NCBI RefSeq assembly: GCF_003054045.1
Contig: NZ_QBKH01000008.1
Coordinates: 62,001 to 126,000 of the forward strand
Source: Sphingobacterium faecium
GTDB taxonomy: Bacteria > Bacteroidota > Bacteroidia > Sphingobacteriales > Sphingobacteriaceae
Length of the DNA: 64,000 nt
Direction of reading: 5' to 3'
Positions 5,213 through 25,495 of the stretch are shown here, piece by piece (positions within the stretch are counted from its first letter, which is position 1; each line of letters opens with the position of its first letter). Below the pieces are notes generated by a model. That model was not told where the DNA came from and searched no databases. It worked only from the letters and a program-made list of their open reading frames with translations. Both the position numbers and the translations under genes were made by a program.

Positions 5213-5327
5213 GGAAACCCTGTATTTTCAAATTACATTAAAATAATTGCAGTTTAAAAAGGAATGTATGCTGTACTACAGTTCTAACAAACCTTTTCAG
5301 CATCGCATACAACATGATATTCACCAT

Positions 5328-6914: not shown

Positions 6915-6946
6915 TGATCGTGAATGTTAACGCTTAATATTTTTTT

Positions 6947-9391: not shown

Positions 9392-9422
9392 ATCACTATT
9401 AAAAGATATGGAGTAGTTTTTT

Positions 9423-9461
9423 AAAGCTATTAAGTGAAAGTAGTACACTTAATAGCTTTTT
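9423..9461 (+). terminator. Rho-independent terminator after the GH2 gene
   Basis: Perfect 14-bp inverted repeat (9423-9436 with 9446-9459; arm AAAGCTATTAAGTG), 9-nt loop, then a T run. It closes the first SusC/D locus and separates it from the minus-strand gene that follows. Confidence 0.85.
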
Positions 9462-9572
9462 CACTTTATCCTATGTTAATTTATCCTCATTCGCTGACAA
9501 AATCGTTTACTAAATCTGATTCTCATTAACAGATAAAGTCAATTAGATAGCTTGTTTGAAAGTTACTTTTTC

Positions 9573-9836
9573 TTACTGAACAATTGGAATCAGCGTATTT
9601 TTTTCTAATCGCACTGCTACATACTTGACGGAGGTAAAACCATCTTCTCTTGAAATAATGTTGGAAAGGTCTAAACCTCTTTTAGAAAAAGTACTGATGA
9701 GAGCCGTGCGAAATGTGGATTTGGAGGAACCCCAGCCTTTTTCCGATACCGTATCATTGTTGAGTTGTATCAGTTCGTTGATGGTGTAATAACTGAATTT
9801 TTCCAGTAAGTGTTGATAAAGATTTGGTGTTGACAT
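9573..9836 (-). CDS. Small conserved-looking protein of unknown function (87 aa)
   Basis: I do not recognise the family. The 87-aa product has no signal peptide or membrane segment. It reads as a compact, mostly helical cytosolic protein (YQHLLEKFSYYTINELIQLN) with a basic middle (SSKSTFRTALISTFSKRG). It ends with two likely beta strands (YVAVRLEKNTLIPIVQ). It is transcribed alone, against both neighbouring SusC/D loci. Its upstream region holds a plausible promoter and two hairpins, which speaks for a real gene. A nucleic-acid-binding or regulatory role is possible but unproven. Confidence 0.6.
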   Translation of the reverse strand: MSTPNLYQHLLEKFSYYTINELIQLNNDTVSEKGWGSSKSTFRTALISTFSKRGLDLSNIISREDGFTSVKYVAVRLEKNTLIPIVQ

Positions 9837-10169
9837 ACAATTTAAAAATTTAAAGGATTAAACCATAAACTGTATCCAGATATTTTTGGTCGAAACCCAT
9901 ATTAATTTACCACCGCGGTTACTTAACTCGGTTGGTATTGCATCGTGCAATTCTGAATACTCTACAAAGTTAGTAGATTTTATTTTGAATCAAAATTTAT
10001 TTTAAAATAATTAGATGTTATTCTTTTCTAGCATAGGTCTATGCTTACCTACATAGATTTTGCTATAGCTTCATGATCAAGTTTTATATGGATATTTTTT
10101 TGATGCAGTTACGCGATTCCTTTATTGGGGTAAAATACCGAATACCCGAGTTCTCAATGGTTAACTGTC
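9837..10169. other. Gap with a structured leader for the 87-aa gene
   Basis: No coding sequence seen. Read on the minus strand, it holds two inverted repeats ahead of the 87-aa gene. One is ATTGCA-N3-TGCAAT (9937-9951). The other is an extended hairpin at about 9908-9937 (arms TACCA..CCG and CGG..TGGTA, with an inner GTT/AAC). They lie between the predicted promoter near 9965-9993 and the ATG, so they would form a structured 5' leader of roughly 120 nt. No known riboswitch was recognised. Confidence 0.45.
9965..9993 (-). promoter_or_regulatory. Candidate Bacteroidota promoter for the 87-aa gene
   Basis: Minus strand: -33 TTG (9993-9991), 18-nt spacer, -7 box TAACTTTG (9972-9965), which fits TAnnTTTG. 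The spacer is slightly shorter than the usual 19-21 nt, so the call is tentative. Confidence 0.45.
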
Positions 10170-10200
10170 TTGTTTTCTTTTAATTATTATTGTAGTTTTG
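10170..10200 (+). promoter_or_regulatory. Bacteroidota-type promoter of the sigma/anti-sigma SusC/D locus
   Basis: -33 TTG (10170-10172), exactly 20 nt, then -7 TAGTTTTG (10193-10200), a full match to TAnnTTTG. It would give a leader of about 45 nt before the sigma factor ATG at 10251. The promoter also shows that the longer reading frame starting at the TTG at 10170 is not the true coding start. Confidence 0.7.
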
Positions 10201-10250
10201 GCCCATCACATGGATTCGTTTTGTCGATATTCGACAGAACGGGGATAAAA

Positions 10251-10823
10251 ATGAAAAACAACTATAGCTCACTCGATAATTTAACTTTACAAAAGTTGAT
10301 CCGAGCTGGAGACCAAGAAGCATTTAAGATCATTTATGAAAGGTATTGGGATAAGATATTTGTAATCTGTAATAACAGGCTTCCACAGACAGATATTGCG
10401 GAAGATCTTTTACAGGATATCTTTGTTTCTCTTTGGAAAAACCCCAAACTTGACGAAATTCAAAATCTTGAAGCCTATTTGTTTCAGGCAACAAAATTCT
10501 CTATTATCAAATATTTAAACCGATCATCTCGAGTTGAATATATTGATCATACCTCCTATGGTCTGTTGGATCGGATAGAAGAACTTAATTTGGATGATAC
10601 CTTGAATTCAAAAGAACTTCAGCAACTTATTTTTCAGGAGATAGAACGACTACCGGAGAAGACCAAAATTATCTTTAATTATTCTCGAATCGACAATCTC
10701 AATAGTAAGGAAATCGCTGAAAAATTGAATATTTCACCTCGTACTGTTGAAAATCAAATAAGTAAAAGTCTAAAACATTTGAGGATTTTTATAAATAATT
10801 TGAAATCTTTATTATTTTTTTAA
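10251..10823 (+). CDS. ECF-type RNA polymerase sigma-70 factor
   Basis: 190-aa extracytoplasmic-function sigma factor. Region 2 is at about 18-88 (DQEAFKIIYERYWDKIF, then DIAEDLLQDIFVSLWKN). Region 4 is at about 120-178 (LPEKTKIIFNYSRI and the helix-turn-helix SKEIAEKLNISPRTVENQI). The start MKNNYSS at 10251 was chosen because a well-formed promoter occupies the upstream extension. The FecR-type anti-sigma gene follows after 61 nt and SusC after that. This is the standard trans-envelope arrangement in which ligand in SusC frees the sigma factor to raise expression of the locus. Confidence 0.95.
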   Translation: MKNNYSSLDNLTLQKLIRAGDQEAFKIIYERYWDKIFVICNNRLPQTDIAEDLLQDIFVSLWKNPKLDEIQNLEAYLFQATKFSIIKYLNRSSRVEYIDHTSYGLLDRIEELNLDDTLNSKELQQLIFQEIERLPEKTKIIFNYSRIDNLNSKEIAEKLNISPRTVENQISKSLKHLRIFINNLKSLLFF

Positions 10824-10884
10824 TTTCGGCGTGCGTTGATTGATACTTGTGGTACTTCTATTATAGACCACGATTGTTAATCAT

Positions 10885-11943
10885 ATGAAATCGCAACAAG
10901 AAATAAAAGAAATTATTGCCCGTATCAACCAAGGTACGGCTTCTAAGGATGAGATCCGCCAATTTCAGCTTTGGTATAATAGTTTTGACGATAGTCAGAC
11001 CGAGGTTGATAGCGATGTCCCTCTTGTTGAACTCCAACAGAAACATTGGGAAAATATAAACAATCGTATCGCTCCAGTGAAGATGAAGCAGATACAATGG
11101 TTATGGAAAGTCGCAGCAGCCATCGTGCTTTTTTCAGCAGCTGTTGCTTGGATATGGTTAAACCAACAATCTGACGTTGATAAACCGATATTTAGATCAG
11201 CAGTTCTAATAACAGATAATACAGGTCAGAGCGAAGAGATCAGTGGCGACCTAAAGGATTTTCTTGATACAGCAAATTATGTGGATCTGAGGAACTATAA
11301 ATCGTTGAGCTCATTAGCAACTGGAAAAGGTGAATTTACAAAAGCCATTCTTCCTGATGGCACCAAAGTAACTTTAAATGTGGGATCTAAAATTTCTCTA
11401 TCCCCAGATTATGCTAGTTCTTCCCAAAGGACAATCTCCTTGGAAGGCGAGGCTTATTTTGAAGTAACGACCATTCCGGGACGGAGCTTTGTGGTCACAA
11501 CTTCAGATCAGCAAATAAAAGTTCTCGGAACAAAATTCAATGTAAAAGCATATGCCGACCTTGAAAAAACAATAACCACACTGCATGAGGGTAAAATCGA
11601 ATTGACCAATGGTCGTCAAAGCTTGATTTTAAAACCAAATGACATGGTGCTCAATACAGATGGCTCCTTCATTCGTGAAAAACTAACCAGATCGGATAAG
11701 GAGGCTTGGCGCAATCTAGATTTTGAATTTGATAACGAATCTATTAAATCAGTCCTAGACCAATTGAGCGCTTGGTATGGTTTTGAGGTTGTATATCAGA
11801 CATCTATACCTAATCAACATATTTCCGGTAAAATAGCAAATGGTTCCAAAACCGCCGATGTGCTTGAGATCATGAAAAACCTAACGAATGGAAATTTCCA
11901 GCTTAAAGGAAATCTTCTGTATGTAACTTTTGCAAATAATTAA
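10885..11943 (+). CDS. FecR-type anti-sigma factor
   Basis: 352-aa inner-membrane regulator. A cytosolic N-terminal part (1-70) would hold the sigma factor. One membrane helix (about 72-92, WLWKVAAAIVLFSAAVAW) is followed by a periplasmic FecR domain (about 145-235; ILPDGTKVTLNVGSKI and SLEGEAYFEV are typical). The C-terminal DUF4974-type domain (about 280-350) probably contacts the STN domain of SusC. It starts at ATG 10885, and SusC begins 11 nt after its stop. Together with the sigma factor it couples ligand import to transcription. Confidence 0.95.
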   Translation: MKSQQEIKEIIARINQGTASKDEIRQFQLWYNSFDDSQTEVDSDVPLVELQQKHWENINNRIAPVKMKQIQWLWKVAAAIVLFSAAVAWIWLNQQSDVDKPIFRSAVLITDNTGQSEEISGDLKDFLDTANYVDLRNYKSLSSLATGKGEFTKAILPDGTKVTLNVGSKISLSPDYASSSQRTISLEGEAYFEVTTIPGRSFVVTTSDQQIKVLGTKFNVKAYADLEKTITTLHEGKIELTNGRQSLILKPNDMVLNTDGSFIREKLTRSDKEAWRNLDFEFDNESIKSVLDQLSAWYGFEVVYQTSIPNQHISGKIANGSKTADVLEIMKNLTNGNFQLKGNLLYVTFANN

Positions 11944-11954
11944 CCTTAAATACA

Positions 11955-14900
11955 ATGAATGAAAAATTCTTTAAACGAAGCCCGGCTTTTTTAAAGCCCG
12001 AGTTGCTTTCGGTTAAACTCACTACCTTGGTGGCCATTGGATTGCTGACCTGTACTTCTCAGCATAGTTTTGCACAGCAAATTCAAGTAGATGGTACCAA
12101 AAAACCTTTAAAAACTGTCTTAAAGCAGATCGAAGACCAATCTGGTTATTCTTTTGTCTATGATGCTGATATTTTGGAAAACGATCCTGCTGTACAGCTT
12201 GCGCTCAATGAAAATGGGATTAAGGAAGCGCTAGCAAAATTATCCACAGCACTAGATGTTGAATATAAGATTGTCAATAAAACGATTACACTTACCAAGC
12301 CAAAAGTAAAGCAGGGCTCTACTGTATTGTTGAAGGGGCGGGTAGTGGTTGATGATCAAGACGGAAAAACAGCTGCCAATCAAGCCGGTGTAAGTGTAGC
12401 CTTAAAAGGTACGAGCAAAGTGATCGGTACGGACAATCGTGGCGAATTCAATATCGTAGCACCTGTGGAAGGTACGTTGATCATCAGCTATATCGGATAT
12501 AAATCGCAGGAAATACCTGTCAAGGAGATCATGAAAAACTCGCGGATTGTATTGGAGAAGAGTATGGATTACCTGGATGAAGTTATTGTCACGGCTTATG
12601 GAACCAAAGAGTCGCGTGAAAATCAGACGGGATCTGCTTTTGTGATCACAAGAAAGGAATTGGAAAATAGACCTACACTTCGTCTTGATGCTTTGTTGGA
12701 AGGTATTGTACCCGGAATTGAATTCAATTCACAAGATGCGGGCACGAATAGTTCAGCCCGATCACGCTACAGTACACGCATACGTGGTGAATCGTCCACG
12801 GTAGGTGGAACAACTTCCAATGAGCCTCTATGGGTGGTGGATGGCGTACCGCTCTATACCGGTGGAACGACCAATTCGATCCCCGGGATGCAGAACTCGA
12901 TCAGTCCATTGACCTATATAAATCCCAATGATATCGAGAGCGTGACCGTCCTTAAAGACGCAAGTGCTACGACCATATATGGAGCCAATGGTTCAAATGG
13001 GGTAATCTTGATCACCACTCGTAAAGGTAAGGGAGCACCAAAACTTAATTATACATTCCGTTCAGGGATCAATAAACGTCCCACGACATACCTCAACCAG
13101 CTCAACGGTCTTCAATACCTGAATCTCGTCAAAGATATGGGAATGATGGATCAACTGGGTAAATTAGATACCAATCAAAATACAAATTGGGCAGATGTCT
13201 ACAATCGTACTGGCTTGACAACCTTGCATAATGTAAGTCTTTCGGGCTCCACAGATGCAGCACGCTATTTCCTAGCTGCCAATGTGTACGATGAAAAACA
13301 CATGATCATTGGCAACACCACCAAGCGCTATGATGTACGTTCCAATGTAAGTGGTAATGTCGGAAAACGCTTGATTCTCAATTCAACCCTATCGGCTTCC
13401 TATACCAAAGACGATATGTTCAATCCTGGAAATGCCTATTTTCAATACAGTCCACTCATCAGTCCTTATGGACCTAATGGAAGTTATATAGAACGAGATC
13501 CAAATGGTAATTTGTTGCAAAATATGCCGGGATTATCTGATCAAAATGATCAGAAACAAGAAGCCGCCCATGTGCTTGGATCATTAGGATTCAGCTATCA
13601 ATTAATGGATGGATTAAAGTTTACCAATCTGAATGGAGCTGATTTTACCAGTGTCAATGAGGATATGTATAATTCGATGTATAATTATTCTGGTGCCTCA
13701 AGTAATGGAAGTGCATATCGAGGACAGTCACAAGTGCTCAATTTAATCAGTACCAATACATTGACTTTTGATAGGAAGATATTTGGTGGAGATTTTGACC
13801 TTTTAGTGGGTACCGAAGCGAGAAAAGAGGAGCGTCGTTCTGTTTCTGCGACAGGAAGCAATTTTCCCAATGACGATATCCGAGAAGTTGGTTTTGTGGC
13901 AGTAACAAGTCGTGTAGGAACAACAAGTCGTGACAAACAGACTCTACTTTCTTATTTTGGGCGAGCTGGTTATGTATATGACAAACGCTATGCGATCAAC
14001 TACACCTATCGAAAAGATGGAAGTTCCAATTTCGGAAAGGATGTTAAATGGGGTACATTTAGTTCTGTAGGCGCTGCCTGGACTGCGAGTAATGAGTCTT
14101 TTTGGCCTAAAAATAAAGTGATCGATTTCTTGAAATTTAAAGTGTCTTACGGGAACAATGGTAACTCTAGATTTAATTCATCTTATGCCAGCGGTATTTA
14201 TAAATACGATGCCGACTATAGTTATGGCGGTAATTCTGGTACAACGATGACAAGAGGTGTCAATGACGGACTGAAATGGGAAACAACCAAAATGCTCAAC
14301 ACGGGTATAGATTTTAGATTATTTGAAAGATTTAATATTGCCGCAGAATTTTATCGAAATGTAACGCATGATATGATTGACAATGCCTATGTCTCGATGG
14401 TAACAGGATTTCGCCGTACCTATGAAAATGTAGGTAAAATGCAGAATACCGGAATCGAACTGAGTGTGAACGGAGATATCATCAAAAAAGAAAAGTTTAA
14501 TTGGAGTGCCAGTTTTATCCTATCCTCCAATCGTAATAAAGTATTGGAGTTAAATGAAGATATCGATCGGGTATCGGGAACTACGATTATGCGTCCTGGT
14601 TATAACTCAAGATCTTATTATTTAGTACGTTGGGCTGGCGTAGATCCTTCTACTGGTGATCCGATGTGGTATGACGTAAATGGCAATATTACCAAAACTT
14701 TTAATACCAATGATCGGGTCATTGCTGGTGATGCGACACACAAGTATTATGGTGGTCTGACTAACTATATCACATATGATAACTGGAACTTTTCTGTCTT
14801 TTTTAAATATGCAAAAGGAGGGCTTTATTTTGATCAAGCAGGCAGAAACAATGGTTTGGATGGTCTTAGTATTTTAAGTGGAAATCAATCCATTGATATG

Positions 14901-15281
14901 TTAAATTCTTGGCGTTTTCCAGGACAGTTGGCCACTTCACCTAGGCTTTCGAATACAAGTACATCGTCCATCATGAATTCTACTCGCTTTTTATTGGATA
15001 GGACATACCTCAAATTGGACAACATCAGCTTAGGTTATACTTTTAAAGCCGGATTAATAGAACGCTTAAAACTAAGTCATATCTCAGTGACCGCTATGGC
15101 CAGCAATTTGGCGATATGGACACCCTATTCAGCAAAAAAAGGGACAATCAAGAATTATGAAACATTAGCTAAGCAATACGGTGTAACAAGCAGTAGTGTC
15201 GTAGATAATACCTATGCCAACATGCTTTCAGAATCTAGCCGAGTGCTTAACTATTCTTTGAATATCAATATTGGTTTTTAA
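11955..15281 (+). CDS. SusC/RagA-type receptor with N-terminal STN signalling domain
   Basis: Full-length 1108-aa TonB-dependent receptor. The signal peptide is cut near FAQ-QIQ (about residue 41). Domains: STN (about 42-115; KPLKTVLKQIEDQSGYSFVYD), carboxypeptidase-regulatory-like domain (about 125-200, GTDNRGEFNI), plug (about 210-335, with DIESVTVLKDASATTIYGAN), and beta-barrel to the terminal Phe. The STN domain is the part that signals to FecR, matching the sigma/anti-sigma genes just upstream; the partial SusC at the left edge cannot be checked for it. No glycosidase accompanies this copy, so its ligand may be peptide-like. Confidence 0.95.
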   Translation: MNEKFFKRSPAFLKPELLSVKLTTLVAIGLLTCTSQHSFAQQIQVDGTKKPLKTVLKQIEDQSGYSFVYDADILENDPAVQLALNENGIKEALAKLSTALDVEYKIVNKTITLTKPKVKQGSTVLLKGRVVVDDQDGKTAANQAGVSVALKGTSKVIGTDNRGEFNIVAPVEGTLIISYIGYKSQEIPVKEIMKNSRIVLEKSMDYLDEVIVTAYGTKESRENQTGSAFVITRKELENRPTLRLDALLEGIVPGIEFNSQDAGTNSSARSRYSTRIRGESSTVGGTTSNEPLWVVDGVPLYTGGTTNSIPGMQNSISPLTYINPNDIESVTVLKDASATTIYGANGSNGVILITTRKGKGAPKLNYTFRSGINKRPTTYLNQLNGLQYLNLVKDMGMMDQLGKLDTNQNTNWADVYNRTGLTTLHNVSLSGSTDAARYFLAANVYDEKHMIIGNTTKRYDVRSNVSGNVGKRLILNSTLSASYTKDDMFNPGNAYFQYSPLISPYGPNGSYIERDPNGNLLQNMPGLSDQNDQKQEAAHVLGSLGFSYQLMDGLKFTNLNGADFTSVNEDMYNSMYNYSGASSNGSAYRGQSQVLNLISTNTLTFDRKIFGGDFDLLVGTEARKEERRSVSATGSNFPNDDIREVGFVAVTSRVGTTSRDKQTLLSYFGRAGYVYDKRYAINYTYRKDGSSNFGKDVKWGTFSSVGAAWTASNESFWPKNKVIDFLKFKVSYGNNGNSRFNSSYASGIYKYDADYSYGGNSGTTMTRGVNDGLKWETTKMLNTGIDFRLFERFNIAAEFYRNVTHDMIDNAYVSMVTGFRRTYENVGKMQNTGIELSVNGDIIKKEKFNWSASFILSSNRNKVLELNEDIDRVSGTTIMRPGYNSRSYYLVRWAGVDPSTGDPMWYDVNGNITKTFNTNDRVIAGDATHKYYGGLTNYITYDNWNFSVFFKYAKGGLYFDQAGRNNGLDGLSILSGNQSIDMLNSWRFPGQLATSPRLSNTSTSSIMNSTRFLLDRTYLKLDNISLGYTFKAGLIERLKLSHISVTAMASNLAIWTPYSAKKGTIKNYETLAKQYGVTSSSVVDNTYANMLSESSRVLNYSLNINIGF

Positions 15282-15295
15282 AATAAGAATTTGAA

Positions 15296-16750
15296 ATGAA
15301 ATTATTTAAATATACGTTTGCTGCACTCTGTTTTTCATTAGTAAGTTGTGGCAGCTCTTTTTTAGAAGTAGCGCCTATCGGGCAATTGGGCAAAGAACAG
15401 TTATTCTCAAATGTCAATGGCATGCGTGATGCCTTGATGGGTAGTTATAGTCTAACTTCTCGTTTTTTTCAGTCTCAATACGGCATCTATGGTGATTTGC
15501 GTGGCGACGATGTACAGCGTAGCACGACATCAACTCAAAATTATATGTTGACAGACTACAATTATAATGTTGATGAAGAGGATGGAACCGGTGGAACCAT
15601 GGCTATCTGGTCTTCAGGTTATGAAGCCTTAAATAACATCAATAATATCATCAACTCTGCAGAAGGTATTCGACCTACTCTGAATGGTAGCTTGGATGAT
15701 TTTAATAGACATTTAGGGCAGAGCCACATCATCCGGGGCTTACTTTTCCTTGCACTTGCTAATGTATATGCACAACACTATACCTATACAGCTGATGCAA
15801 GCCATCCAGGAATTCCTATTCCAACAGCAACGCCTCTACCATCGCAAAATTTACCGCGTGCAACGATGAAGGACACTTACGCGCAAATCATAAAAGATAT
15901 GGAGACTGGGATACAGTATCTAGATAATTTGAGTCCCGCTACACGTATCTATGCTTCTTCAGACGCCGCTCGTGCCTTATTGTCTCGTATCTATTTATAT
16001 ATGGGACGTTATGATGAAGCTATCCAATACGCTTCTGAAGTCGTGTCAAAAGGAAGCTATCCATTAGTCAAAAATGCTGATTATAAAGACATGTTTATAG
16101 CAGAGAGTCAGTTATCAGACTATAACAGCATCAAGTCTGAAGTTATCTGGCAATTGAATCTTAATACGAGATCAGCAAATTATATGTCTAGCTTTTATTC
16201 AGATCGCACATCCTTTTTGGCGTACCCAAGCAAAGCATTTTTAAATTTCTTTGAGACTACTGATGTGAGGAGAAACCTATATGAACTACAAGCCAGTTCG
16301 GGAAATTCTATTTCGCTTAAAAATGCAAAAAATATTGCTATACCAGATATCAACTGGCCGGTCAACTTTAAAGTGATCCGCTCTTCTGAACTATACCTCA
16401 ATCGTGCCGAAGCTTATTACCATACTAAACAGTATAGCTTAGCAGAGGAGGATATTAAAATGATTAGAGCTAGAGCGCTCAATAAGAATGTGGCTGACAT
16501 CATCGTACAATATAGTTCTCCAGAAGAACTGCTAGAGCAGATCAAAATGGAACGCCGTAAAGAGCTCGCGTTTGAAGGTCAACGGATCTATGATATTATG
16601 CGTTATAAAGAAAGTCTCAACCGTGGTACGGATTGCGGAGCAGCTAATTGCACTGTCAACTACCCCAATGATCTCTTTATCTTACCGATTCCGAAAACGG
16701 AACTGGACGCTAATCCATCAATTAAACCAAATCCTACTGTAAATAAATAA
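15296..16750 (+). CDS. SusD/RagB-type ligand-binding lipoprotein
   Basis: 484-aa surface lipoprotein partner of the SusC just upstream (14-nt gap). The signal peptide ends in a lipobox (SLVSC, Cys about 19), followed by SSFLEVAPIGQLGKEQLF, a typical SusD start. TPR-like helices (SDAARALLSRIYLYMGRYDEAIQYA) and the C-terminal MERRKELAFEGQRIYDIMRY match the family. It binds the imported ligand outside the cell; ligand unknown. Confidence 0.95.
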   Translation: MKLFKYTFAALCFSLVSCGSSFLEVAPIGQLGKEQLFSNVNGMRDALMGSYSLTSRFFQSQYGIYGDLRGDDVQRSTTSTQNYMLTDYNYNVDEEDGTGGTMAIWSSGYEALNNINNIINSAEGIRPTLNGSLDDFNRHLGQSHIIRGLLFLALANVYAQHYTYTADASHPGIPIPTATPLPSQNLPRATMKDTYAQIIKDMETGIQYLDNLSPATRIYASSDAARALLSRIYLYMGRYDEAIQYASEVVSKGSYPLVKNADYKDMFIAESQLSDYNSIKSEVIWQLNLNTRSANYMSSFYSDRTSFLAYPSKAFLNFFETTDVRRNLYELQASSGNSISLKNAKNIAIPDINWPVNFKVIRSSELYLNRAEAYYHTKQYSLAEEDIKMIRARALNKNVADIIVQYSSPEELLEQIKMERRKELAFEGQRIYDIMRYKESLNRGTDCGAANCTVNYPNDLFILPIPKTELDANPSIKPNPTVNK

Positions 16751-16753
16751 GAC

Positions 16754-17209
16754 ATGAAAAAGATGCTACTTTTAATGGGGTTTATGATGATGTTATCTGT
16801 TTCTTGTAACAAAGAGCTGGAGACACCTTATGACCACCCTTTTTTCTACATACACCAAAATAATGATTCAGAAATAACCGTACAGTCTAATCGAAATGAA
16901 CCCGTGGACTATAAGGTTTATTTAAGTACTAAAACTCAGTTTGAGCCTGTCACGTTAACATATGAGATCATTGTAGGTGATGGCCTTAAAGAAGGTATTG
17001 ATTACGAAATCTTGAACACAAGCTCTTCTTTACTGTTTAAACCTGGATATGTAGAGATGCCTATCACGATTCGTTGGATCAATCATCCCATCCAAGAAGA
17101 AAAGGACAATACATTAATCATCAGATTGCTTAGCAACGACAAGGATATTACGATCGGTATGCCAGGTCCCGACCATAAACAGTCGAGCTTAAAAATTACT
17201 AAAATCTAG
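16754..17209 (+). CDS. DUF4843-like lipoprotein
   Basis: 151-aa small lipoprotein. The signal peptide is Met-rich and ends in LSVSC (Cys about 18). One beta-sandwich follows, with VTLTYEIIVGDGLKEGIDYEI and PGYVEMPITIRW. The pattern of a long-strand domain that tolerates a GxDYE turn is shared by DUF4843 and Calx-beta-like modules of SusD neighbours. It starts 3 nt after SusD and touches the M16 gene, so it is surely co-transcribed. Probable surface or periplasmic ligand-binding accessory; no catalysis expected. Confidence 0.65.
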   Translation: MKKMLLLMGFMMMLSVSCNKELETPYDHPFFYIHQNNDSEITVQSNRNEPVDYKVYLSTKTQFEPVTLTYEIIVGDGLKEGIDYEILNTSSSLLFKPGYVEMPITIRWINHPIQEEKDNTLIIRLLSNDKDITIGMPGPDHKQSSLKITKI

Positions 17210-20023
17210 ATGGGTATGGCATTTGTGAAAATAATAATAGGATTATTGACCTTTATTCTTGTCTCGACGGGATTTCTGCAGGCTCAGAATCTGAAGCAGG
17301 ATCCGAAGTTGTTGCGTGGAAAATTGAAAAACGGATTTCAATATTTTATCTATCCAAATCACACCAATAATCAACAAACTGCTATCCAACTTTTTGTAAA
17401 TGCTGGCAGTTTGCAAGAAGAAGACAACCAATTGGGATTAGCCCATTTTGTTGAACACATGGCCTTTAATGGAAGTAAGCATTACCCCAAAAATGAGGTC
17501 ATTACTTATCTAGAGTCTCTGGGAGTGAAATTTGGTGCAGATCTTAATGCACACACTTCTTATGACGAGACGGTATATAAAATTACTATCAATAGTAAAA
17601 CGAATGAAAACTTGGAGAAGGCCTTGGACATCGTCAGTGATTGGGCTTTTAATTTAAGTTTTGATTCGCTCGAGATTGAAAAAGAGCGTGGTATTATCAT
17701 TGAAGAATGGCGCACAAAAGAAGGTCTTTCTGCGCGATTAAGTGACCAAACTTTACCACTTATCTTTGCTAATTCTCGTTATGGCGACCGTAAACCAATT
17801 GGTACATTAGATATACTCCGCCATTTTCAAAGATCAACATTGGTCGACTTTTACCATAAATGGTATAGACCAAATCTGATGGGGCTAGCAGTGGTCACCA
17901 ATCAGGACCCTAAAGTTGTTGAAAAGATGGTCAAAAAGCTATTTGGAGATGCTAAAAACAGAAAACCAGAAGCAAAACGAATTGCCTACCGTTTGTCAAA
18001 TCATGCAGATACGCTGATCAAGATCTACACAGACAAAGAGGCTAGTACCATCGATTTTAGCTATATCGGAATTTTACCAGCGTCTAAAGCTTTGAAAACG
18101 GAAGCTGATTTTTTTGAAAATTTAAAACGTAATGCTGTCAATACGCTGATCAAGAAGAGGTTTGATCGTATTGGACAATTGGATGATAGTTACAAAAGTG
18201 CTTCTATGTCAGTATCAGATCTCTTGCTCAACAATGGATTATCTGTTGGTGGAGCTACCTTGTATGAGGGGCAGGTACAAGAAGGCATCGCTAAATTTCT
18301 GAAAGAGCGTGAGCGACTGTTGCGTTATGGGTTTAACTCTTCCGAACTGAACGATTATAGAGAGCAATATAAGAAACAGTTACAGCGGGCGCCCCAAAAT
18401 AATGAATTGAATGCCAATATGATGTTGAGCCAGTTAAAGGATGTTTTTTTTACGGGACAGGTATTGATGGATAAGGATGAACGCAATAAGCAGGTCTTGC
18501 GTGATATCGATCGATTGGATTCTTTAAATCTTTTGGAGCATCTCCAAGGTTATTTTAAGCCAGGGAACACAGCTGTCATGCTTACTGCTCCAGAGCGTTT
18601 AGGATCTAAAATCCCCAATGAAATTGCACTCCGCCAATTATTTGCTCAGGCTAAACAGGCTGATCTGAAGAGGTGGACGGATAACATTGAAATTCCAACA
18701 CAGTTATTGAGCGATAAGCCGACAAGTGGTCAGGTCATACAAAAACAATCGATCAATGAGATCGGCGTAACTAAATGGGAACTCTCCAATGGATCAAAAG
18801 TCTACCTGAAGAAAAATGACAGTCGAAAAGACCATGTTCAATTGACGGCATTTAGAAAAGGCGGTTTTATCGCGGTAGACAGTGCAGATTATGTAAATGC
18901 CGTTTTCGCAAAAAATATCATTGGCGCTAGTGGTGCAGGTGAATTTACACGAGCGGCATTGACCAAATATTTGAATGGAAATTCGGCTTCCGCTACCTTT
19001 ATGATTGCACCCAATCGTGAAGGATTATCTGCTTCGGCAAATAGGAAAGATATCAAAACGATGTTCGAATTACTATACTTAAAATGGACACAACCACGTG
19101 TCGATAGTAAGATCTTTGGTAGTGTCAAAAAACAGAGCTTGGATGCTGCAAGAAATAAAAAGTTCCAAGTCATGGAGGCTTATAACCTGGCCATCAATAA
19201 AGCGATCGGAGCGGATGATCTAGATGAAAGCAATCTATCTGCTGACCGTATTGAAAAAGGTCTACAGCTGGATCGTATTGTGCCGGTATTTAAAGAACGT
19301 TTTCAATCGGCTAAAGATTTTGATTTTGTGCTGGTGGGAGACTTTGATGCCGATAGTATTCAACCATTGGTTGAACAGTATATAGGAGGTCTTCCTAGCG
19401 GTCCTTATACCTCCGAACAACGTATTCCGGAATATACACAGCGCGAAAATCAAGAAATTATTCAATATGCAGGTCAAGCCGACAAAGCTACAGTAAATCT
19501 GTTTTACCAGACCACTTCCATTCAGTATGATTATCCTGATATCCTCAAAAATGAATTGATGGAGAATGTGCTTAAAGTAAAATTGCGCAAAAATCTAAGG
19601 GAAGAGCAGTCTGGGGTATATGGTGTAGGCGTGAGTGTCAGTGCGACTTCCGAACCAACAGCATTGATGCGTACGCGGATTAATTTTACTTGTGAACCTA
19701 GTCGAGCAGATTTTTTAATAGAGCAGGTACAAGTTGAGCTTGCAAAGATTGCAAAAGATCCGTCTTATTTTACTGAAGAACTTGAAAATGCAAAGGTTCA
19801 AATATACCAAGCTTATGAAAAACAATGGGGTAAGGATACATTTTGGAGTGCAGAGCTTCGTAATCACATCTATTTTCAATTTGCTAATTGGTCATTTTTT
19901 ACTACGTATAAGCAGATGCTACACCAAATTAAAGCTGCTGATATTGCGGACTACACAAATAGTAAAATGAGTAAAGCCTATCAAGTGAAGGCAGTATTAC
20001 TGCCAGAGAGTTTTAAAAAATAA
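17210..20023 (+). CDS. M16-family zinc metallopeptidase (pitrilysin-like), periplasmic
   Basis: 937-aa two-lobed M16 peptidase. A signal peptide (about 1-25, ending FLQAQ) sends it to the periplasm. The active N-terminal half has the inverted zinc motif HFVEH (79-83) and the distal zinc ligand Glu159 in EKERGIIIEEW. The second half (about 500-937) is the inactive M16 lobe. The ATG abuts the upstream TAG (TAGATG), so translation is probably coupled; another Met lies two codons on. M16 enzymes enclose and cut peptides or small proteins up to a few kDa. Its place in a SusC/D operon suggests that it degrades what SusC imports. Confidence 0.93.
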   Translation: MGMAFVKIIIGLLTFILVSTGFLQAQNLKQDPKLLRGKLKNGFQYFIYPNHTNNQQTAIQLFVNAGSLQEEDNQLGLAHFVEHMAFNGSKHYPKNEVITYLESLGVKFGADLNAHTSYDETVYKITINSKTNENLEKALDIVSDWAFNLSFDSLEIEKERGIIIEEWRTKEGLSARLSDQTLPLIFANSRYGDRKPIGTLDILRHFQRSTLVDFYHKWYRPNLMGLAVVTNQDPKVVEKMVKKLFGDAKNRKPEAKRIAYRLSNHADTLIKIYTDKEASTIDFSYIGILPASKALKTEADFFENLKRNAVNTLIKKRFDRIGQLDDSYKSASMSVSDLLLNNGLSVGGATLYEGQVQEGIAKFLKERERLLRYGFNSSELNDYREQYKKQLQRAPQNNELNANMMLSQLKDVFFTGQVLMDKDERNKQVLRDIDRLDSLNLLEHLQGYFKPGNTAVMLTAPERLGSKIPNEIALRQLFAQAKQADLKRWTDNIEIPTQLLSDKPTSGQVIQKQSINEIGVTKWELSNGSKVYLKKNDSRKDHVQLTAFRKGGFIAVDSADYVNAVFAKNIIGASGAGEFTRAALTKYLNGNSASATFMIAPNREGLSASANRKDIKTMFELLYLKWTQPRVDSKIFGSVKKQSLDAARNKKFQVMEAYNLAINKAIGADDLDESNLSADRIEKGLQLDRIVPVFKERFQSAKDFDFVLVGDFDADSIQPLVEQYIGGLPSGPYTSEQRIPEYTQRENQEIIQYAGQADKATVNLFYQTTSIQYDYPDILKNELMENVLKVKLRKNLREEQSGVYGVGVSVSATSEPTALMRTRINFTCEPSRADFLIEQVQVELAKIAKDPSYFTEELENAKVQIYQAYEKQWGKDTFWSAELRNHIYFQFANWSFFTTYKQMLHQIKAADIADYTNSKMSKAYQVKAVLLPESFKK

Positions 20024-20037
20024 TTTAATTTAGATGA

Positions 20038-20087
20038 GATCATCGGAATTTTCAAACCAGCTGCGGTATGAAGTAGATCTGATGATC
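20038..20087 (+). repeat. Inverted repeat between the M16 and DUF5018 genes
   Basis: GATCATCGGA (20038-20047) and TCTGATGATC (20078-20087) form a 10-bp stem with one G-U pair around a 30-nt loop. No T run follows, so it is not a clear terminator. It may be an RNA-processing or stabilising element in the 88-nt gap. Confidence 0.35.
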
Positions 20088-20111
20088 ACATCGCTATAAA
20101 AAAATATTAGG

Positions 20112-21884
20112 ATGAAAAAAAACTATTGTTTATATCTGTTGATGGCCATCTCTAGCCTAATCCTTTTCGGATGTAAAAAAGATGCGTTACTGGCCGATAA
20201 TGTTCAGTTGCAATCCTTTTCTTTTGATCCATCGGCCAATCCTGGATTAAAAGAGGCAGTATTTGGAACTATTGAAGGTCAGCAGATTCATATTACGGTA
20301 CCAAATTCAATCGATATCACTAAAGCTATACCTTCTTTTCATGGTAGCTCAGATAAATTGATTGCCTATGTTGGTCAGAAAGTTCAAGAATCAGGCATCA
20401 GCGCTGTTGATTTTACACAAACAGTTGTCTATCGATTTGTGACACCCGATGGAATGTCGGAGTACAGTGTGACGGCTGAAAAGGCCGGTTCTATCGTGTC
20501 TTTCGGTTTCTATGCCGCAGACAATCCAGAATACTTGTTTAGAGATTACCCAGCAACCATAACGAAGCTTGATATTAAAGTTGACTTACCAGTAGATGCT
20601 GATGTGACGAAATTGGTAGCTCGGTATACAAAAAGCAATGGTACCATTTTAAAGTATAATGGTACTGATTTCGTAAGTAAAGAAACCGTATTGGACTATA
20701 CCTTACCACAAAGCTTGGAGCTACAAGATGTGCAAAGTGGCACTTCGGAAAACTTTGTCGTTACAGTGGGTCGACTTACTGCTCCTGTGTGGTCTACTGT
20801 ACAATTACCAGATTTTTTAAATATCAATAATGTCGCGGAGGCAGGACTTGAAATTAACCCTGTAAACAGACAGCCCTATGTATCAGTGCAATTTTCTGGA
20901 AGTACAGACGATCTACGTAAGGGGCTGATCACGACATGGAATGCCGATACCAAGCAATGGGAAACGCTTGGGGGAAATACAGGTTTTACACCAACTCGAG
21001 CAGATCTTATTTCTCTTGACTTTTCGAAACAAGGGGTACCTTATGTAGCATTTAGAGATTATACAGCAGGAACTAATGCGCAGTATGCATCTTTAATGAA
21101 GTATGAAAATAACGCATGGTCATTTGTTGGAAATCAACAGGGTTCTTTCAATAGAGTTAACTACTTGACATTAAAATTGGATGAAAATGATATTCCTTAT
21201 CAAGGATATGTCTTTACTCGTGCTTCATCTCCTTATCCAAATCGAGGTACCTATGTAGAATCTTTTAATGGATCTACTTGGTCCGGACAGACTTTTGCGC
21301 AATCGTCTACTGGGTGGTATGCTAAGATGTTTAAAGGAGGCGACAGTAAGCTTTATTATGTTGTAATGGATTTAACAAGTGGCACTGCTACACGTAAGCC
21401 CTCGGTTTATAGGTTGGACAATGGTGTGTGGAATCTAGTAGGAAATGTAAACGTAGGTCCTGCTGAGTCCAACTCCGGCGGTATAAATATAGATCTTGAT
21501 GTGACAGCAGATGGTCAGATCTATATGGTTTATCAATCTAATTCGCCAGCTTATAAAACATTTGTGATGCATTGGAATGGTAGTACCTGGAAACAGTTTG
21601 GCGATGGAATTAGCCAATCCACAAGTAGTTCTGCCAATCGAGACAATGTTGCCATCTCTATACATCCGGATGGTCGCGTTTTCTTAGCTTATGGAGATGC
21701 TATCAACGGTATCAAAGTGTGTACATTTAATGAAAGTATTGGGAATTGGAATGCCGCTACACAAATATCGGCAGAAAATGGGAATAAATTTGTTATGCAA
21801 ATCAGTAAAGAGGGTATCCCATATCTAATAACAGTCATAAACAATAAAGCTACACTCTTTAAATACGATATTCCAGGATTGTAA
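20112..21884 (+). CDS. Lipoprotein with DUF5018-like domains and a C-terminal propeller-like region
   Basis: 590-aa lipoprotein (lipobox LILFGC, Cys about 21). Two beta domains of DUF5018 type come first (about 30-125 and 128-235; NPGLKEAVFGTIEGQQIHITVP and then SFGFYAADNPEYL). Residues about 240-590 show a repeated strand pattern of the kind W..VG/LGG...F...D. Examples are KQWETLGGN, NAWSFVGNQQG, GVWNLVGNVNVG and STWKQFGDG. About every 50-60 residues a D..G.PY or D..G.IY turn occurs, which suggests a beta-propeller. Likely a surface binding protein of the same operon; ligand unknown. Confidence 0.65.
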   Translation: MKKNYCLYLLMAISSLILFGCKKDALLADNVQLQSFSFDPSANPGLKEAVFGTIEGQQIHITVPNSIDITKAIPSFHGSSDKLIAYVGQKVQESGISAVDFTQTVVYRFVTPDGMSEYSVTAEKAGSIVSFGFYAADNPEYLFRDYPATITKLDIKVDLPVDADVTKLVARYTKSNGTILKYNGTDFVSKETVLDYTLPQSLELQDVQSGTSENFVVTVGRLTAPVWSTVQLPDFLNINNVAEAGLEINPVNRQPYVSVQFSGSTDDLRKGLITTWNADTKQWETLGGNTGFTPTRADLISLDFSKQGVPYVAFRDYTAGTNAQYASLMKYENNAWSFVGNQQGSFNRVNYLTLKLDENDIPYQGYVFTRASSPYPNRGTYVESFNGSTWSGQTFAQSSTGWYAKMFKGGDSKLYYVVMDLTSGTATRKPSVYRLDNGVWNLVGNVNVGPAESNSGGINIDLDVTADGQIYMVYQSNSPAYKTFVMHWNGSTWKQFGDGISQSTSSSANRDNVAISIHPDGRVFLAYGDAINGIKVCTFNESIGNWNAATQISAENGNKFVMQISKEGIPYLITVINNKATLFKYDIPGL

Positions 21885-21891
21885 TAACAAT

Positions 21892-21924
21892 AGATCGGAC
21901 AGAACATATCTGTCCGATCTTTTA
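21892..21924 (+). terminator. Rho-independent terminator after the DUF5018 lipoprotein
   Basis: Perfect 12-bp stem (AGATCGGACAGA at 21892-21903, with 21909-21920), 5-nt loop and TTTT. It should end or attenuate the transcript before the phosphoesterase, whose ATG is 14 nt further on. Confidence 0.75.
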
Positions 21925-21937
21925 GATTTAATACTAT

Positions 21938-23419
21938 ATGATTAATAGAATAAGTTATTTGTTGGCTTTGGCAGTATTATTTGCTGTGGAAGCAATGGCA
22001 CAAAGCCCATCTGCAAAAAGTGTATGGGTCAAAGGTCATGTGTTTGAAGACAAAAATAATAATGGTATGCAGGATAAAGGGGAGAAGGGGCTTTCCAAGG
22101 TGTTGATATCCAATGGTGTCCATGTAATAAGTTCTGACAGTCGTGGAGCTTATGCTTTTGAAGCAGAAGTTGGACAATCTATCTTTTCTATCCATCCGTC
22201 AGCATATCAGTATGCAAATGCCAACAAAATTGGTAATGCAAATGCATATTATCTAAATCCAAATAACCATATTTCGGATACGCTGGTTTATAACATGCCC
22301 TTGCAAAAAAGGAAAAGTGTACCAAAAGATTTTAATATTGCAGCAATTGGAGATGTTCAGGTTAGTGATCAAGAAGAACTCGGATTTGCAGCTAAAAGTA
22401 TTTTTTCGGAGCTTCTTGAACGTAATGATATTGATTTCAACCTGGTCTTAGGCGATTTGGTCAATAATAATATGGATATATTGCCTGATTTCGGTAACAT
22501 TCTTGGGACTCTTCCGATGACATCATGGACTATGGTCGGCAATCATGATCGTAATGTTGACCATCCAGCTTATATGAATGACCGTTTTAATACGGTGTTT
22601 GGAGCAGATAATTATGCTTTCAATTATGGTCATGCGCATTTTATTGTATTGAATAATGTCTTTGCTACGGGCAAAAATTCTTATGAAGGAAGATTGACCG
22701 ACGATCAATTGACGTTTTTAAAGAATGATTTGGCACATGTTCCAAAAGATGTTTTAGTTGTCCTCAGTCAGCATATACCAATGGCTTTTACACGAAATAA
22801 AGCAGAGGTGCTCCAACAGTTGGAAGGATATGAGAATGTCTTATTGTTGTCCGGGCATACCCATCAGGTGGATCGATATTTTTTTAAAAGTCATGCAATA
22901 CAAGAACTGGGGGCCGGTGCTACTTGTGGTAATTGGTGGCGAGGAGAAAAGGATGCTTTTGGTGTGCCAGATGCCATGATGCAATGCGGTAGCCCGAGAG
23001 GATATTTTGTGATCCATATTAAAGATAATCAGTATACTTTTAAGTATAAGGCAATTGGACAGGATGCTAAAAAGCAAATGCATATTACTTTGAATGACGG
23101 ATTATTGCAGGCTAATATATTTGGGGCTGGAGATAGTACCAAAGTTCTGGTTCAACTAAATGATGGAGAATGGCTACAGATGCAACTTAGTAAAAGCATA
23201 GATCCGCTTGTCGCCCATATTATAGAAAAAAACAATCAAAAGATATATCCAAGTCCTGGCAGTACGGCCAATCCACTCCGAAAAAGAAAATCTAGCCATC
23301 TTTGGGAATTGCCGATGCCACAGTTGAATGCTAATAGGAATAAAATCATTCGCATTAAAGCACAAGACTCCTACGGCTTTTCTGTACAGAATGAGTTTAT
23401 GGAGTATTTTTCCAAATAA
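21938..23419 (+). CDS. Calcineurin-like metallophosphoesterase with N- and C-terminal beta domains
   Basis: 493-aa exported phosphoesterase (signal about 1-21, ending AMA-QS). An SdrD-B/carboxypeptidase-like beta domain (about 30-100; GHVFEDKNNNGMQDKGEKGL) precedes the catalytic domain (about 125-330). Metal motifs in order are AAIGDVQ, LVLGDLVNN, MVGNHDRN and LSGHTHQVD. The first motif reads D-V-Q where many phosphoesterases have D-x-H; Gln here is also seen in the Bacteroidota metallophos_N/C subgroup. A C-terminal beta domain (about 345-490) follows. It sits just past a terminator, so it may be expressed partly independently. Substrate unknown. Confidence 0.88.
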   Translation: MINRISYLLALAVLFAVEAMAQSPSAKSVWVKGHVFEDKNNNGMQDKGEKGLSKVLISNGVHVISSDSRGAYAFEAEVGQSIFSIHPSAYQYANANKIGNANAYYLNPNNHISDTLVYNMPLQKRKSVPKDFNIAAIGDVQVSDQEELGFAAKSIFSELLERNDIDFNLVLGDLVNNNMDILPDFGNILGTLPMTSWTMVGNHDRNVDHPAYMNDRFNTVFGADNYAFNYGHAHFIVLNNVFATGKNSYEGRLTDDQLTFLKNDLAHVPKDVLVVLSQHIPMAFTRNKAEVLQQLEGYENVLLLSGHTHQVDRYFFKSHAIQELGAGATCGNWWRGEKDAFGVPDAMMQCGSPRGYFVIHIKDNQYTFKYKAIGQDAKKQMHITLNDGLLQANIFGAGDSTKVLVQLNDGEWLQMQLSKSIDPLVAHIIEKNNQKIYPSPGSTANPLRKRKSSHLWELPMPQLNANRNKIIRIKAQDSYGFSVQNEFMEYFSK

Positions 23420-23860
23420 TGATATAATTGGTCTTAGATATGATGTTTAAGACTAGTTACATCATCATAAACCCAGATCTCACAAAAATACTATCAACTA
23501 TTTTTAGATAATTCGGCAATCTGCTCGCATCGGTGTTGGAATGACGCTAAAATAATTTACTGAATAAACCTTGCAGGAACTCATGAAGATTTAATCCAAA
23601 AAATACATCTTTTGACGTATTGTTTTTGACAGTGAAAAGAACGAATTTTGTTTTCTACAGACGCTCATTAAAACCTTGACTTTATATTTTTTAAACCTAT
23701 GTTAGCAAAGTGCTGAATAATCGAGCGCTTATGTATGTGGATGTTAAATCCTCGCACGCTTCTATTATGATCTTTTAGGGCAAACAGGATCATCACTTAT
23801 AAGTCTTTTATAGAATCAGACGGTCACCTTTTATAAAATTAAAACTACAAAAAACCTATA
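23420..23860. other. 441-bp gap without a recognised gene
   Basis: I see no coding frame, RNA gene or full TAnnTTTG promoter here. A short GTCTTA...TAAGAC inverted repeat just after the phosphoesterase stop lacks a T run. The sequence marks the change from the packed SusC/D operon to the AT-rich patch that follows. Confidence 0.5.
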
Positions 23861-24469
23861 ATGAAAAAAATATTTAGTACTATCTTATTTATACTAGCAG
23901 TCTACACAGGATTTGCACAAGAGAAAACAACCCTTGACGATGGCTCCTCTTTTGAGATCGGATTAGTAGATAAGAAAACAAATATCTACGGATTTAAAGC
24001 ACACTATAAGAATGGACAATTGAAATCTATAGGACATTTGATCGGGCTGGGAGGTAATCAGGTAAGTTCCGATAAAACTGGAGAATGGATGAACTATTAT
24101 GAGGATGGTACATTAAAATCAACGGGAAATTATAAAGATGGATATCAGGTAGGTGAATGGAAATTCTATCATGATAACGGATCATTAAAAGAGATTGGAA
24201 AGTATAAAGACTATTTACCGCTCATAGAAGGGAAATATCCTCCTACTAGAGGAGAAAAGACCGGAGAATGGAAAACTTATTTTGATGATGGAAAACTGGA
24301 AATCTTAGGAAACTATCAGCATGATAAAATGGTAGGCGAATGGAAAAGATATTACAACAACGGAAAATTGAGGGATGTTGTACATTATACTGAAGGAGAG
24401 CCGAGCGGATTATGGAAAAACTACAGTGAATCAGGGGAATTGCTAAGCTCGAAGAATTACGATGAATAG
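23861..24469 (+). CDS. MORN-repeat (YwqK-type) exported protein
   Basis: 202-aa protein with a signal peptide (about 1-19, ending GFAQ). At least five MORN_2-type repeats follow, of the form GEW..YY.DG.LK..GNY (GEWMNYYEDGTLKSTGNY, GEWKFYHDNGSLKEIGKY, GEWKTYFDDGKLEILGNY, GEWKRYYNNGKLRDVVHY). Proteins of this build are annotated as YwqK-family antitoxins, but the repeat is a general beta-hairpin scaffold and toxin neutralisation is not shown. It heads a run of small, AT-rich genes. Confidence 0.8.
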   Translation: MKKIFSTILFILAVYTGFAQEKTTLDDGSSFEIGLVDKKTNIYGFKAHYKNGQLKSIGHLIGLGGNQVSSDKTGEWMNYYEDGTLKSTGNYKDGYQVGEWKFYHDNGSLKEIGKYKDYLPLIEGKYPPTRGEKTGEWKTYFDDGKLEILGNYQHDKMVGEWKRYYNNGKLRDVVHYTEGEPSGLWKNYSESGELLSSKNYDE

Positions 24470-24544
24470 ACCTAAACTTACTTTTCTAAATTTATATCTT
24501 TATAGATCTTAACTTGATCTAGGCTCTAAAATAACCATTTCAAT

Positions 24545-24736
24545 ATGCATTTTATACTAAGGAGTATAATAGATAATTTATGGAAGTCTTTCCAAGATAA
24601 GGTAAGTACTTATGTTAATCAACATGGTGGTGTTGCAAATATTGTAAGTCCTAAAATTGAGCGGCCTGATTGGGTTGATATTGAAAGAGTTGTTAAAGGA
24701 ATTAAACCCATATCAACTTTGAGGAGCGATTGTTAA
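24545..24736 (+). CDS. 63-aa orphan, possibly a remnant of a larger protein
   Basis: Unrecognised 63-aa frame. An in-frame stop (24527-24529) lies just upstream, so it cannot extend left. The C-terminal half (GGVANIVSPKIERPDW, then VDIERVVKGIKPISTL) looks like ordered, selected sequence rather than a random frame. The first 20 residues are less convincing. It ends in Cys, 10 nt before the next gene. It may be the tail of a decayed secreted toxin or a real small gene; I cannot decide between them. Confidence 0.35.
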   Translation: MHFILRSIIDNLWKSFQDKVSTYVNQHGGVANIVSPKIERPDWVDIERVVKGIKPISTLRSDC

Positions 24737-24746
24737 TAATTAGAGC

Positions 24747-25211: not shown

Positions 25212-25495
25212 GCACCATTTTCGAATGGTATCACTTAGTAATACCGATCTTTGAAGTATGAAAAGACTGAATACTATAATTACAATTGCGTAACTCAAAT
25301 GATAGCCCAGAAAAATATTTTGAAAAGATAGCATAATATTATTGTACATAGAATAGCGGCGATAAGTAATATAATCTTTTTACAAAGTTTGGATACGCCT
25401 TGATCGACAAGATATTGCTGCAATGAATACTATTTAAGAGAAGGAGCTAAGAGTAAGCTTAGTACAAGGTTCAAAGTCAATATTCAGCGTATATA

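Follow-up and report, generated by a model that had tools for sequence, protein, structure and literature searches.

A conserved SusC/SusD gene cassette with an M16 peptidase in Sphingobacterium: a candidate system for polypeptide uptake

The stretch of DNA analyzed here (the window) comprises 64,000 nucleotides (nt) of Sphingobacterium faecium contig NZ_QBKH01000008.1, and contains a run of eight genes, all on the plus strand (10251-23419), the first seven of which form a cassette that recurs in the same order in related genomes. This cassette encodes a sigma factor, an anti-sigma factor of the FecR type, a SusC/SusD (SusCD) transporter pair, two lipoproteins and an M16 metallopeptidase, and the peptidase is the only enzyme that is always present in it. 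We propose that it may constitute an uptake system for polypeptides, i.e. for peptides or small proteins, with digestion in the periplasm, and we regard the chances of this reading as about even. It builds on gene order, conservation, co-occurrence, protein families, catalytic residues and predicted folds.

The gene run and its conservation

In the window genome, which has a size of 5.3 Mb, the run begins with the gene of an extracytoplasmic function (ECF) sigma factor of 190 amino acids (aa) at 10251-10823 (TIGR02985, 133.3 bits against a cut-off of 126.4; start chosen from relatives and sequence), followed by that of a FecR-type anti-sigma factor at 10885-11943 (PF04773, PF16344). The SusC-type TonB-dependent outer-membrane transporter at 11955-15281 scores 633.8 bits with TIGR04056 and is also above the cut-off of TIGR04057, and together with the SusD-type lipoprotein lid encoded at 15296-16750 (PF07980, PF14322) it makes up the gene pair by which SusC/SusD nutrient importers are recognized. 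The sequence-only reading had termed this transporter an STN-type SusC, of which the SusC assignment holds, while the N-terminal domain is better called STN-like, as it reaches 26.1 bits and thus stays below the Pfam cut-off of 28.4. Next come a 151-aa lipoprotein with a predicted Calx-beta or immunoglobulin-like (Ig-like) fold (16754-17209), which was assigned by structure prediction and co-occurrence and serves as cassette-specific marker, and the 937-aa M16 metallopeptidase (17210-20023; PF00675, PF05193; signal peptide by eye). The seventh gene (20112-21884) encodes a 590-aa lipoprotein in which two Ig-like domains precede a C-terminal beta-propeller, in the layout of a surface-binding protein according to structure prediction and a profile match, and the eighth (21938-23419) a secreted-type calcineurin-like phosphoesterase of 493 aa (PF00149, PF16370). 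Six of the eight genes are hence named by profiles above curated cut-offs; the window copies of the two lipoproteins other than SusD gave no such matches in the profile searches. The intergenic distances are 61 nt between sigma and FecR genes, 11 nt from there to SusC, 14 nt to SusD, 3 nt to the 151-aa lipoprotein and 0 nt to the M16 gene, whose start codon directly follows the stop codon of the lipoprotein gene, which agrees with the 0-61 nt that had been read earlier from sigma to M16. The propeller gene follows after 88 nt, the phosphoesterase gene after a further 53 nt.

Order and strand of the seven genes are identical in 34 of 35 complete loci, the window included. In the remaining locus (L011, from a metagenome-assembled genome (MAG) of Filimonas) the sigma factor gene is inverted, and the SusD gene is split into two open reading frames (ORFs), which results in a gap of 907 nt. 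The count leaves aside loci at contig ends (L129, L206), one with a split M16 frame (L190/L009), L132, in which the SusCD pair and the lipoprotein differ and the propeller is missing, the duplicates L193 and L197, and L010, which is the same locus as L131. Besides close relatives, the run occurs in four more distant loci (L133-L136), in two Pedobacter species and in the Filimonas MAG. Close relatives of the M16 peptidase (at least 50% identity, the window copy included) were present in at least 14 of 93 genomes of the genus among the matches listed, most other matches being at about 30%. The 151-aa lipoprotein was detected in 18 of 93 genomes of the genus, in 10 of 201 from the family, in 34 of 400 from the order and in 2 of 395 from the phylum (the samples overlap, and the own genome is counted in each), with all matches at E <1e-49 and no intermediate scores among those listed. 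This adds up to 37 genomes, 18 of them belonging to the genus, another 18 to the rest of the family and one (G581) to a different family, and in all 37 the lipoprotein gene is followed by M16 and propeller genes, with two loci cut by contig ends and one M16 frame split. Near-complete propeller proteins (E <1e-160) occur in exactly those 18 of the 93 genus genomes that contain the lipoprotein (Fisher test, 1.4e-19, in which the kinship between genomes is ignored), and partial, weaker matches in 11 more (29 of 93 altogether). A chance neighbourhood of these genes, which we considered as an explanation, is ruled out by the shared order in 34 of 35 loci and by this co-occurrence. The sequence-only reading had taken the abutting M16 start as an argument for one functional unit and had suggested looking for the set in other Bacteroidota, and both points are borne out by the shared order and by the recurrence of the seven-gene set.

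The seven proteins also diverge in parallel: their pairwise divergences correlate with r 0.87-0.98 over 34 loci, and for every protein pair none of 500 permutations gave a value as high, a correlation to which the common ancestry of the loci contributes. Median pairwise identities are 48.7% for M16, 46.2% for the 151-aa lipoprotein, 42.5% for SusC, 38.9% for SusD, 31.3% for the propeller protein, 27.5% for FecR and 25.4% for the sigma factor, and M16 and the 151-aa lipoprotein are thus the most constrained members. The phosphoesterase is a frequent, not a constant companion, being present in 24 of the 35 loci, the window included. Leaving the window aside, it is close to the run in 23 of 34 loci: in 20 it lies downstream and co-directional (8 of these 20 show no more than about 30% identity to the references used), in two downstream and inverted, and in one upstream and divergent.

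Two loci deviate in their own ways. In genome G331, a second, solitary gene of the 151-aa lipoprotein is found directly upstream of the cassette sigma gene (L196, 6730-7212). Locus L132 (G041, 5006-16930, minus strand) combines cassette-like sigma factor, FecR, M16 and phosphoesterase (59%, 40%, 34% and 49% identity to the cassette, respectively) with another SusC (30%), another SusD (26%) and a different lipoprotein, and a propeller protein is missing, a composition that suggests module swapping.

The M16 peptidase and its genomic contexts

All residues that are expected of an active M16 enzyme are present in the cassette peptidase: the HxxEH motif at positions 79-83 (H79, E82, H83), the distal E159, and R797 and Y804, which represent the C-terminal Arg/Tyr pair with its established role in M16 enzymes, are invariant in 15 aligned rows. 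As the N-terminus in addition resembles a type I signal peptide by eye, an active periplasmic peptidase can be expected. Among solved chains, 9ldy (named simply as an M16 peptidase) comes first with 374 bits, followed by PqqL with 280 bits and FusC with 190 bits; all three align over most of the length, with pitrilysin and insulin-degrading enzyme far behind (52 and 51 bits). As a control, the M16 peptidase of L217, which is encoded apart from SusCD genes, was compared with the same chains and reached 492 bits with 9ldy, 290 with PqqL and 190 with FusC. E. coli PqqL (L210) likewise aligns at length with M16 proteins from the cassette, from other SusCD loci and from stand-alone genes at the same 21-28% identity, and some shorter pieces reach 32-39%. 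Since stand-alone enzymes score alike, the likeness to PqqL and FusC is a property of the whole M16 family in these genomes and not of the cassette. A Sphingobacterium “Peptidase M16” is listed in a table of plant-biomass-degrading proteins in PMC4666044, where the entry itself comes without genetic context.

Is the peptidase tied to SusCD genes, or does it occur in many unrelated contexts and only by chance here, as the sequence-only reading had considered? We inspected 43 further M16 loci of the genus, 23 of which were chosen by score, copy number or interest in the own genome, and 20 systematically as every fifth of 100 listed ones; the sample covers long M16 proteins, and shorter or different ones of the window genome stand outside it. 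In the systematic part, 14 M16 genes stand alone, all adjoining an ORF of about 300 aa that resembles a recombinase by eye, and six follow SusC and SusD genes. Altogether, 23 of the 43 stand alone, 18 are accompanied by SusC/SusD genes, and of the other two, L145 is truncated by its contig end and L138 is broken. Among the 18 linked genes, 16 have SusC and SusD upstream, L153 has both downstream, and L154 has only SusD in the examined stretch. In a tree of 78 M16 proteins with hand-corrected context labels (L145 unlabelled; the fragmented L138 and the frame-split L009 left out), the 23 stand-alone proteins form one clade (Shimodaira-Hasegawa-like approximate likelihood ratio test, SH-aLRT, 100), outside of which all 36 cassette proteins and the 18 others with a link to SusCD are placed, so that a single change separates stand-alone from SusCD-linked M16s. 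Cassette rows need two changes, as L132 groups with L133-L136. Several long branches meet in the M16 trees, which makes the deeper joins unsure. The cassette M16s, L132 included, thus belong to a context-specific lineage, and all readable contexts outside the stand-alone clade are SusC/SusD loci, which does not agree with a chance association.

SusCD loci with a linked protease seem to be a repeated pattern in these genomes, and at least four operon designs can be distinguished: the cassette itself, SusCD with ABC genes (often MutS-like genes) and M16, SusCD with a thioredoxin-like protein and M16, and SusCD with DUF4843/PKD lipoproteins, a thioredoxin-like protein and M16. In loci of the ABC design, the SusCD genes are followed by those of an ABC ATPase and an ABC-2 permease, in many cases by one MutS-like gene or a pair of them (L151, L154, L156, L158, L216, L226, L227; without them L137, L149, L152), and then by M16; Pfam confirmed MutS_III and MutS_V in the MutS-like gene of L156 and ABC families in the gene pair of L149, and the rest was assigned by likeness. 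The order sigma factor, FecR, SusC, SusD, thioredoxin-like protein and M16 is seen in L228, L229 and L140, the latter being in the window's own genome (C12), with a DUF4369 domain (Pfam) in its thioredoxin-like protein. The design with DUF4843/PKD lipoproteins includes L148, which holds a true DUF4843 lipoprotein according to Pfam. In L153, the M16 gene lies between the sigma and FecR genes, ahead of SusC and SusD. In L138 (G018), three ORFs make up the broken M16 gene, and the examined stretch contains no match to SusC or SusD.

The two lipoproteins

For the 151-aa lipoprotein, an affiliation to DUF4843 had been suggested from the sequence, which did not hold up, as neither the window copy nor 17 relatives match PF16132 at E<=0.1. 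The protein has no NCBIfam match and no Pfam match above cut-off. Its predicted structure is a Calx-beta domain with a predicted local distance difference test score (pLDDT) of 82, and Calx CBD1 aligns to this model with Z 12.6 and a root-mean-square deviation of 2.4 over 104 residues. By Pfam, the Calx-beta score of the window copy is 18.3 bits against a cut-off of 27, and 8 of 18 members match at E<=0.1.

The 590-aa protein had been described as a DUF5018/propeller lipoprotein. The propeller is supported by structure prediction, and a Pfam match to any family was not obtained with the window copy. The model (pLDDT 80) shows two Ig-like domains and the propeller; L133-L136 propeller proteins are without the first Ig-like domain. 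Structures that fit the propeller half (223-589) with Z 23-28 are as diverse as an alkylating enzyme, lectins, lyases and other propellers. Over positions 2-259, the protein's profile aligns with Bt1761 of the levan utilisome (E 5e-7), in which N-terminal and central domains are Ig-like and the C-terminal domain binds levan, as described in PMC7618045. The propeller protein is thus laid out like a glycan-binding surface protein of a utilisome, with ligand binding as a prediction from sequence and model. The mature N-termini begin with C-x-K-(D/E) in 32 of 35 copies of the 151-aa lipoprotein and in 22 of 35 propeller proteins, which resembles a lipoprotein export signal. On these grounds, i.e. 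the utilisome-like layout and the export-signal-like starts, surface exposure of both lipoproteins is likely, and so is their earlier suggested role as capture modules, with the caveat that the window copies are without the full signal.

Glycosidases and the borders of the cassette

Polysaccharide utilisation loci are characterized by carbohydrate-active enzymes that are encoded together with SusCD, and inside the run this is the case in none of the 35 loci. Gaps inside the run do not exceed 381 nt in the 34 other loci, save the above-mentioned 907 nt in L011, which represent a broken SusD half, and therefore there is no room for a glycosidase within the run. A Pfam scan of the flanks covered 121 of the 149 proteins that are 150 aa or longer (phosphoesterases and some others left out), and no glycosidase was found among the 25 commonest of 155 families, the 130 rarer ones being outside the listing. 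The earlier statement that no glycoside hydrolase is present is thus correct for the run, and its counterpart, that related operons might consistently contain carbohydrate-active enzymes, is not what these loci show. In the window itself, genes of glycoside hydrolase families 43 and 2 (GH43, GH2) lie upstream on the same strand (5247-9391). We considered that the cassette might be a part of this upstream locus, which also includes a SusD gene at 2564, and ruled this out with the help of the sister locus L119 in genome G054. The DNA there is 97.6% identical and collinear with the window between 9574 and 23428 and then from 25491 onwards, and the GH43 and GH2 genes are not beside the cassette (about 2.6 kb beyond 9574 seen).

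Proposed function and alternatives

How might the components act together? On the cell surface, the propeller and Calx-beta lipoproteins would surround the SusCD pair and capture a peptide or a small, perhaps glycosylated, protein. SusD would close over the cargo, TonB-derived energy would pull it through SusC, and the periplasmic M16 peptidase would then cut it. Cargo bound to SusC may at the same time cause the STN-like domain to signal to FecR, whereby the sigma factor would be freed and the expression of the run would increase; such self-regulation by sigma factor, FecR and STN is plausible. The phosphoesterase would be an optional helper. In this model we infer the location at the surface, the formation of a complex, what the cargo is and that it is cut, and the signalling loop. 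Because the cavity in which SusCD ligands are held has a limited size (PMC7782687), a folded small protein is no more likely to be the cargo than peptides or unfolded chains.

Several observations weigh against polypeptide uptake, in which the cargo itself has to be deduced, and the propeller fold fits sugar binding as well. The best structural matches of the propeller include sugar lectins and polysaccharide lyases beside protein binders, and the N-terminal half of the same protein matches a glycan-binding protein. C-x-K-(D/E)2, the complete export signal, occurs in only 12 of 35 copies of the 151-aa lipoprotein and in 5 of 35 propeller proteins, in neither case in the window copy; it was scored against the optimum defined as C-X-K-(D/E)2-X in Capnocytophaga (PMC5080379), which may not be Sphingobacterium's own. 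The cassette further contains no inner-membrane peptide transporter and no second peptidase, its SusC and SusD are not especially close to RagA and RagB, their best matches being other SusC/SusD proteins, and kinship to FusC and PqqL was dropped as evidence for a Fus-type system after the control with stand-alone M16s. The SusCD pair could thus import a glycan or another non-peptide ligand with the help of a lectin-like propeller, with sugar enzymes encoded elsewhere and the M16 enzyme serving periplasmic clean-up or quality control. This would agree with the propeller's likeness to the lectins PLL, PHL and CV39L and to polysaccharide lyases, with the relation of its N-terminal half to a levan-binding surface protein, with the fact that SusCD pairs are typically glycan importers (PMC7618045), and with one flanking protein upstream of the cassette in L120 that resembles the window GH43 (26% identity over 266 aa, E 1e-8). 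We nevertheless regard it as unlikely, as there is no room for a glycosidase in any of the 35 loci and none among the commonest flank families, and as the peptidase is invariant and of a context-specific lineage. Lectin-type propeller folds and an invariant peptidase would be reconciled if the cargo were a glycopeptide or glycoprotein fragment, whose sugar is read by the propeller and whose peptide part is cut by M16, but the set is without a glycan-removing enzyme, and we consider this cargo quite improbable.

The peptidase could also act on the system's own components rather than on cargo, trimming FecR, SusC or a lipoprotein in regulation or maturation. Sigma factor and FecR are constant partners, and the M16 gene position between them in L153 would fit such a role. 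However, M16 follows ABC, MutS-like or thioredoxin-like genes in other SusCD-M16 loci, and most sigma/FecR/SusCD operons known to us are without M16, which makes this function very unlikely. M16 enzymes degrade small peptides, and the cassette might hence be a sink that takes in and destroys antimicrobial peptides of competitors, for which the patchy distribution (18 of 93 genus and 34 of 400 order genomes) could be cited. Immunity, export or biosynthesis genes do not stand out in the 25 commonest flank families, and a nutrient-type SusCD pair with surface capture proteins fits feeding better, so that we assign to such a defence the lowest probability of the possibilities considered.

If the cassette indeed imports polypeptides, it may belong to a wider class. 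We tentatively, and with considerable doubt, suggest that Bacteroidota possess a class of SusCD loci for protein or peptide utilisation, in which M16 replaces glycosidases as fixed partner and at least four operon designs exist. A defined core of seven genes would be seen for the first time in the cassette, which would import intact small proteins or glycoproteins by the pedal-bin gate. SusCD gates are mostly treated as sugar importers, and the cassette offers a concrete and testable case of peptide or protein feeding in Bacteroidota. If true, protease-coupled import, which has been described for Proteobacteria, would have arisen on a different receptor, and the annotation of SusCD loci without sugar enzymes would be aided.

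Relation to known systems

Polypeptide uptake by the cassette would resemble the Fus system (FusA-FusC, YddB-PqqL) in that a TonB-dependent transporter gene lies beside the gene of a periplasmic single-chain M16 enzyme of about 930 aa, in one operon as judged from gene order and gaps, and in its patchy distribution. The differences are substantial: the cassette has a SusC receptor with a SusD lid instead of FusA, it includes surface lipoproteins and sigma/FecR genes, and the set contains no TonB-like or ABC gene. In Fus, genes of these types are FusB and FusD. With the window SusC, 10 solved chains were matched by phmmer (E<=0.001); eight of them carry the names SusC or RagA, the other two are given as a TonB-linked outer membrane protein and a fragment of a TonB-dependent receptor, and the names FusA and YddB are absent among these 10, solved chains of FusA and YddB presumably existing under such names. 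Fus and its relatives couple FusA-type receptors to M16 enzymes in Proteobacteria (PMC6793856, PMC6071955, PMC12731061), with FusC degrading ferredoxin (PMC12731061); FusA relatives are described from Proteobacteria in the available text of PMC6793856, which names SusC once, in a distant comparison. A Bacteroidota counterpart of Fus, as the sequence-only reading had envisaged, is therefore not supported in the sense of descent, given the SusC receptor, the missing TonB-like and ABC genes, and PqqL being no closer to cassette than to stand-alone M16s. The cassette may share the logic of Fus by analogy, and it is not a member of that system.

With RagAB and Bt2261-64 the cassette shares the SusCD pair; we know of no dedicated M16 enzyme in either of them. 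Both systems hold oligopeptides (PMC7782687). The levan utilisome (Bt1760-1763) and polysaccharide utilisation loci in general are similar in combining SusCD, which typically import glycans (PMC7618045), with a lipoprotein that consists of two Ig-like domains and a C-terminal ligand domain; the cassette differs by the propeller as ligand domain and by a periplasmic peptidase in place of glycosidases. The order of sigma factor, FecR and a receptor with an STN-like domain corresponds to FecI/FecR/FecA signalling, with the difference that the cassette receptor is a SusC protein and that signalling is a prediction. Among the best-ranked open-access literature matches, we found no description of a SusCD set with an M16 peptidase.

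Regulation and adjoining genes

The sigma gene had first been thought to start with a TTG codon at 10170. The ATG at 10251, 81 nt later, is most likely the start instead, and the resulting length of 190 aa is also seen in several relatives. Between the two codons, 58 nt before the sigma start, lies a promoter-like -7 box (10193-10200, plus strand) of the form TAnnTTTG, which we take to be the Bacteroidota promoter consensus. The box is found at the same distance of 58 nt in L120, L121 and L123 as well, and it is probably the main promoter of the run. At least one such box occurs within 320 nt upstream in 18 of 23 loci, by eye and with sometimes unfitting spacing, and no other shared upstream motif was seen by eye in these 23 loci, 10 of which were aligned, a motif program not being used. 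As for iron control, one palindromic Fur-like pattern had no match in the window, with 0.70 expected by chance, which is uninformative.

Downstream of the cassette and phosphoesterase genes, the window contains a segment (23429-25490) that encodes a MORN-repeat protein as well as a protein of 154 aa with no match in Pfam, and that is missing at that place in G054. On the other side, an 87-aa ORF without Pfam or NCBIfam match precedes the cassette on the minus strand (9573-9836), and this ORF is present in G054 as well, with its first 45 residues identical.

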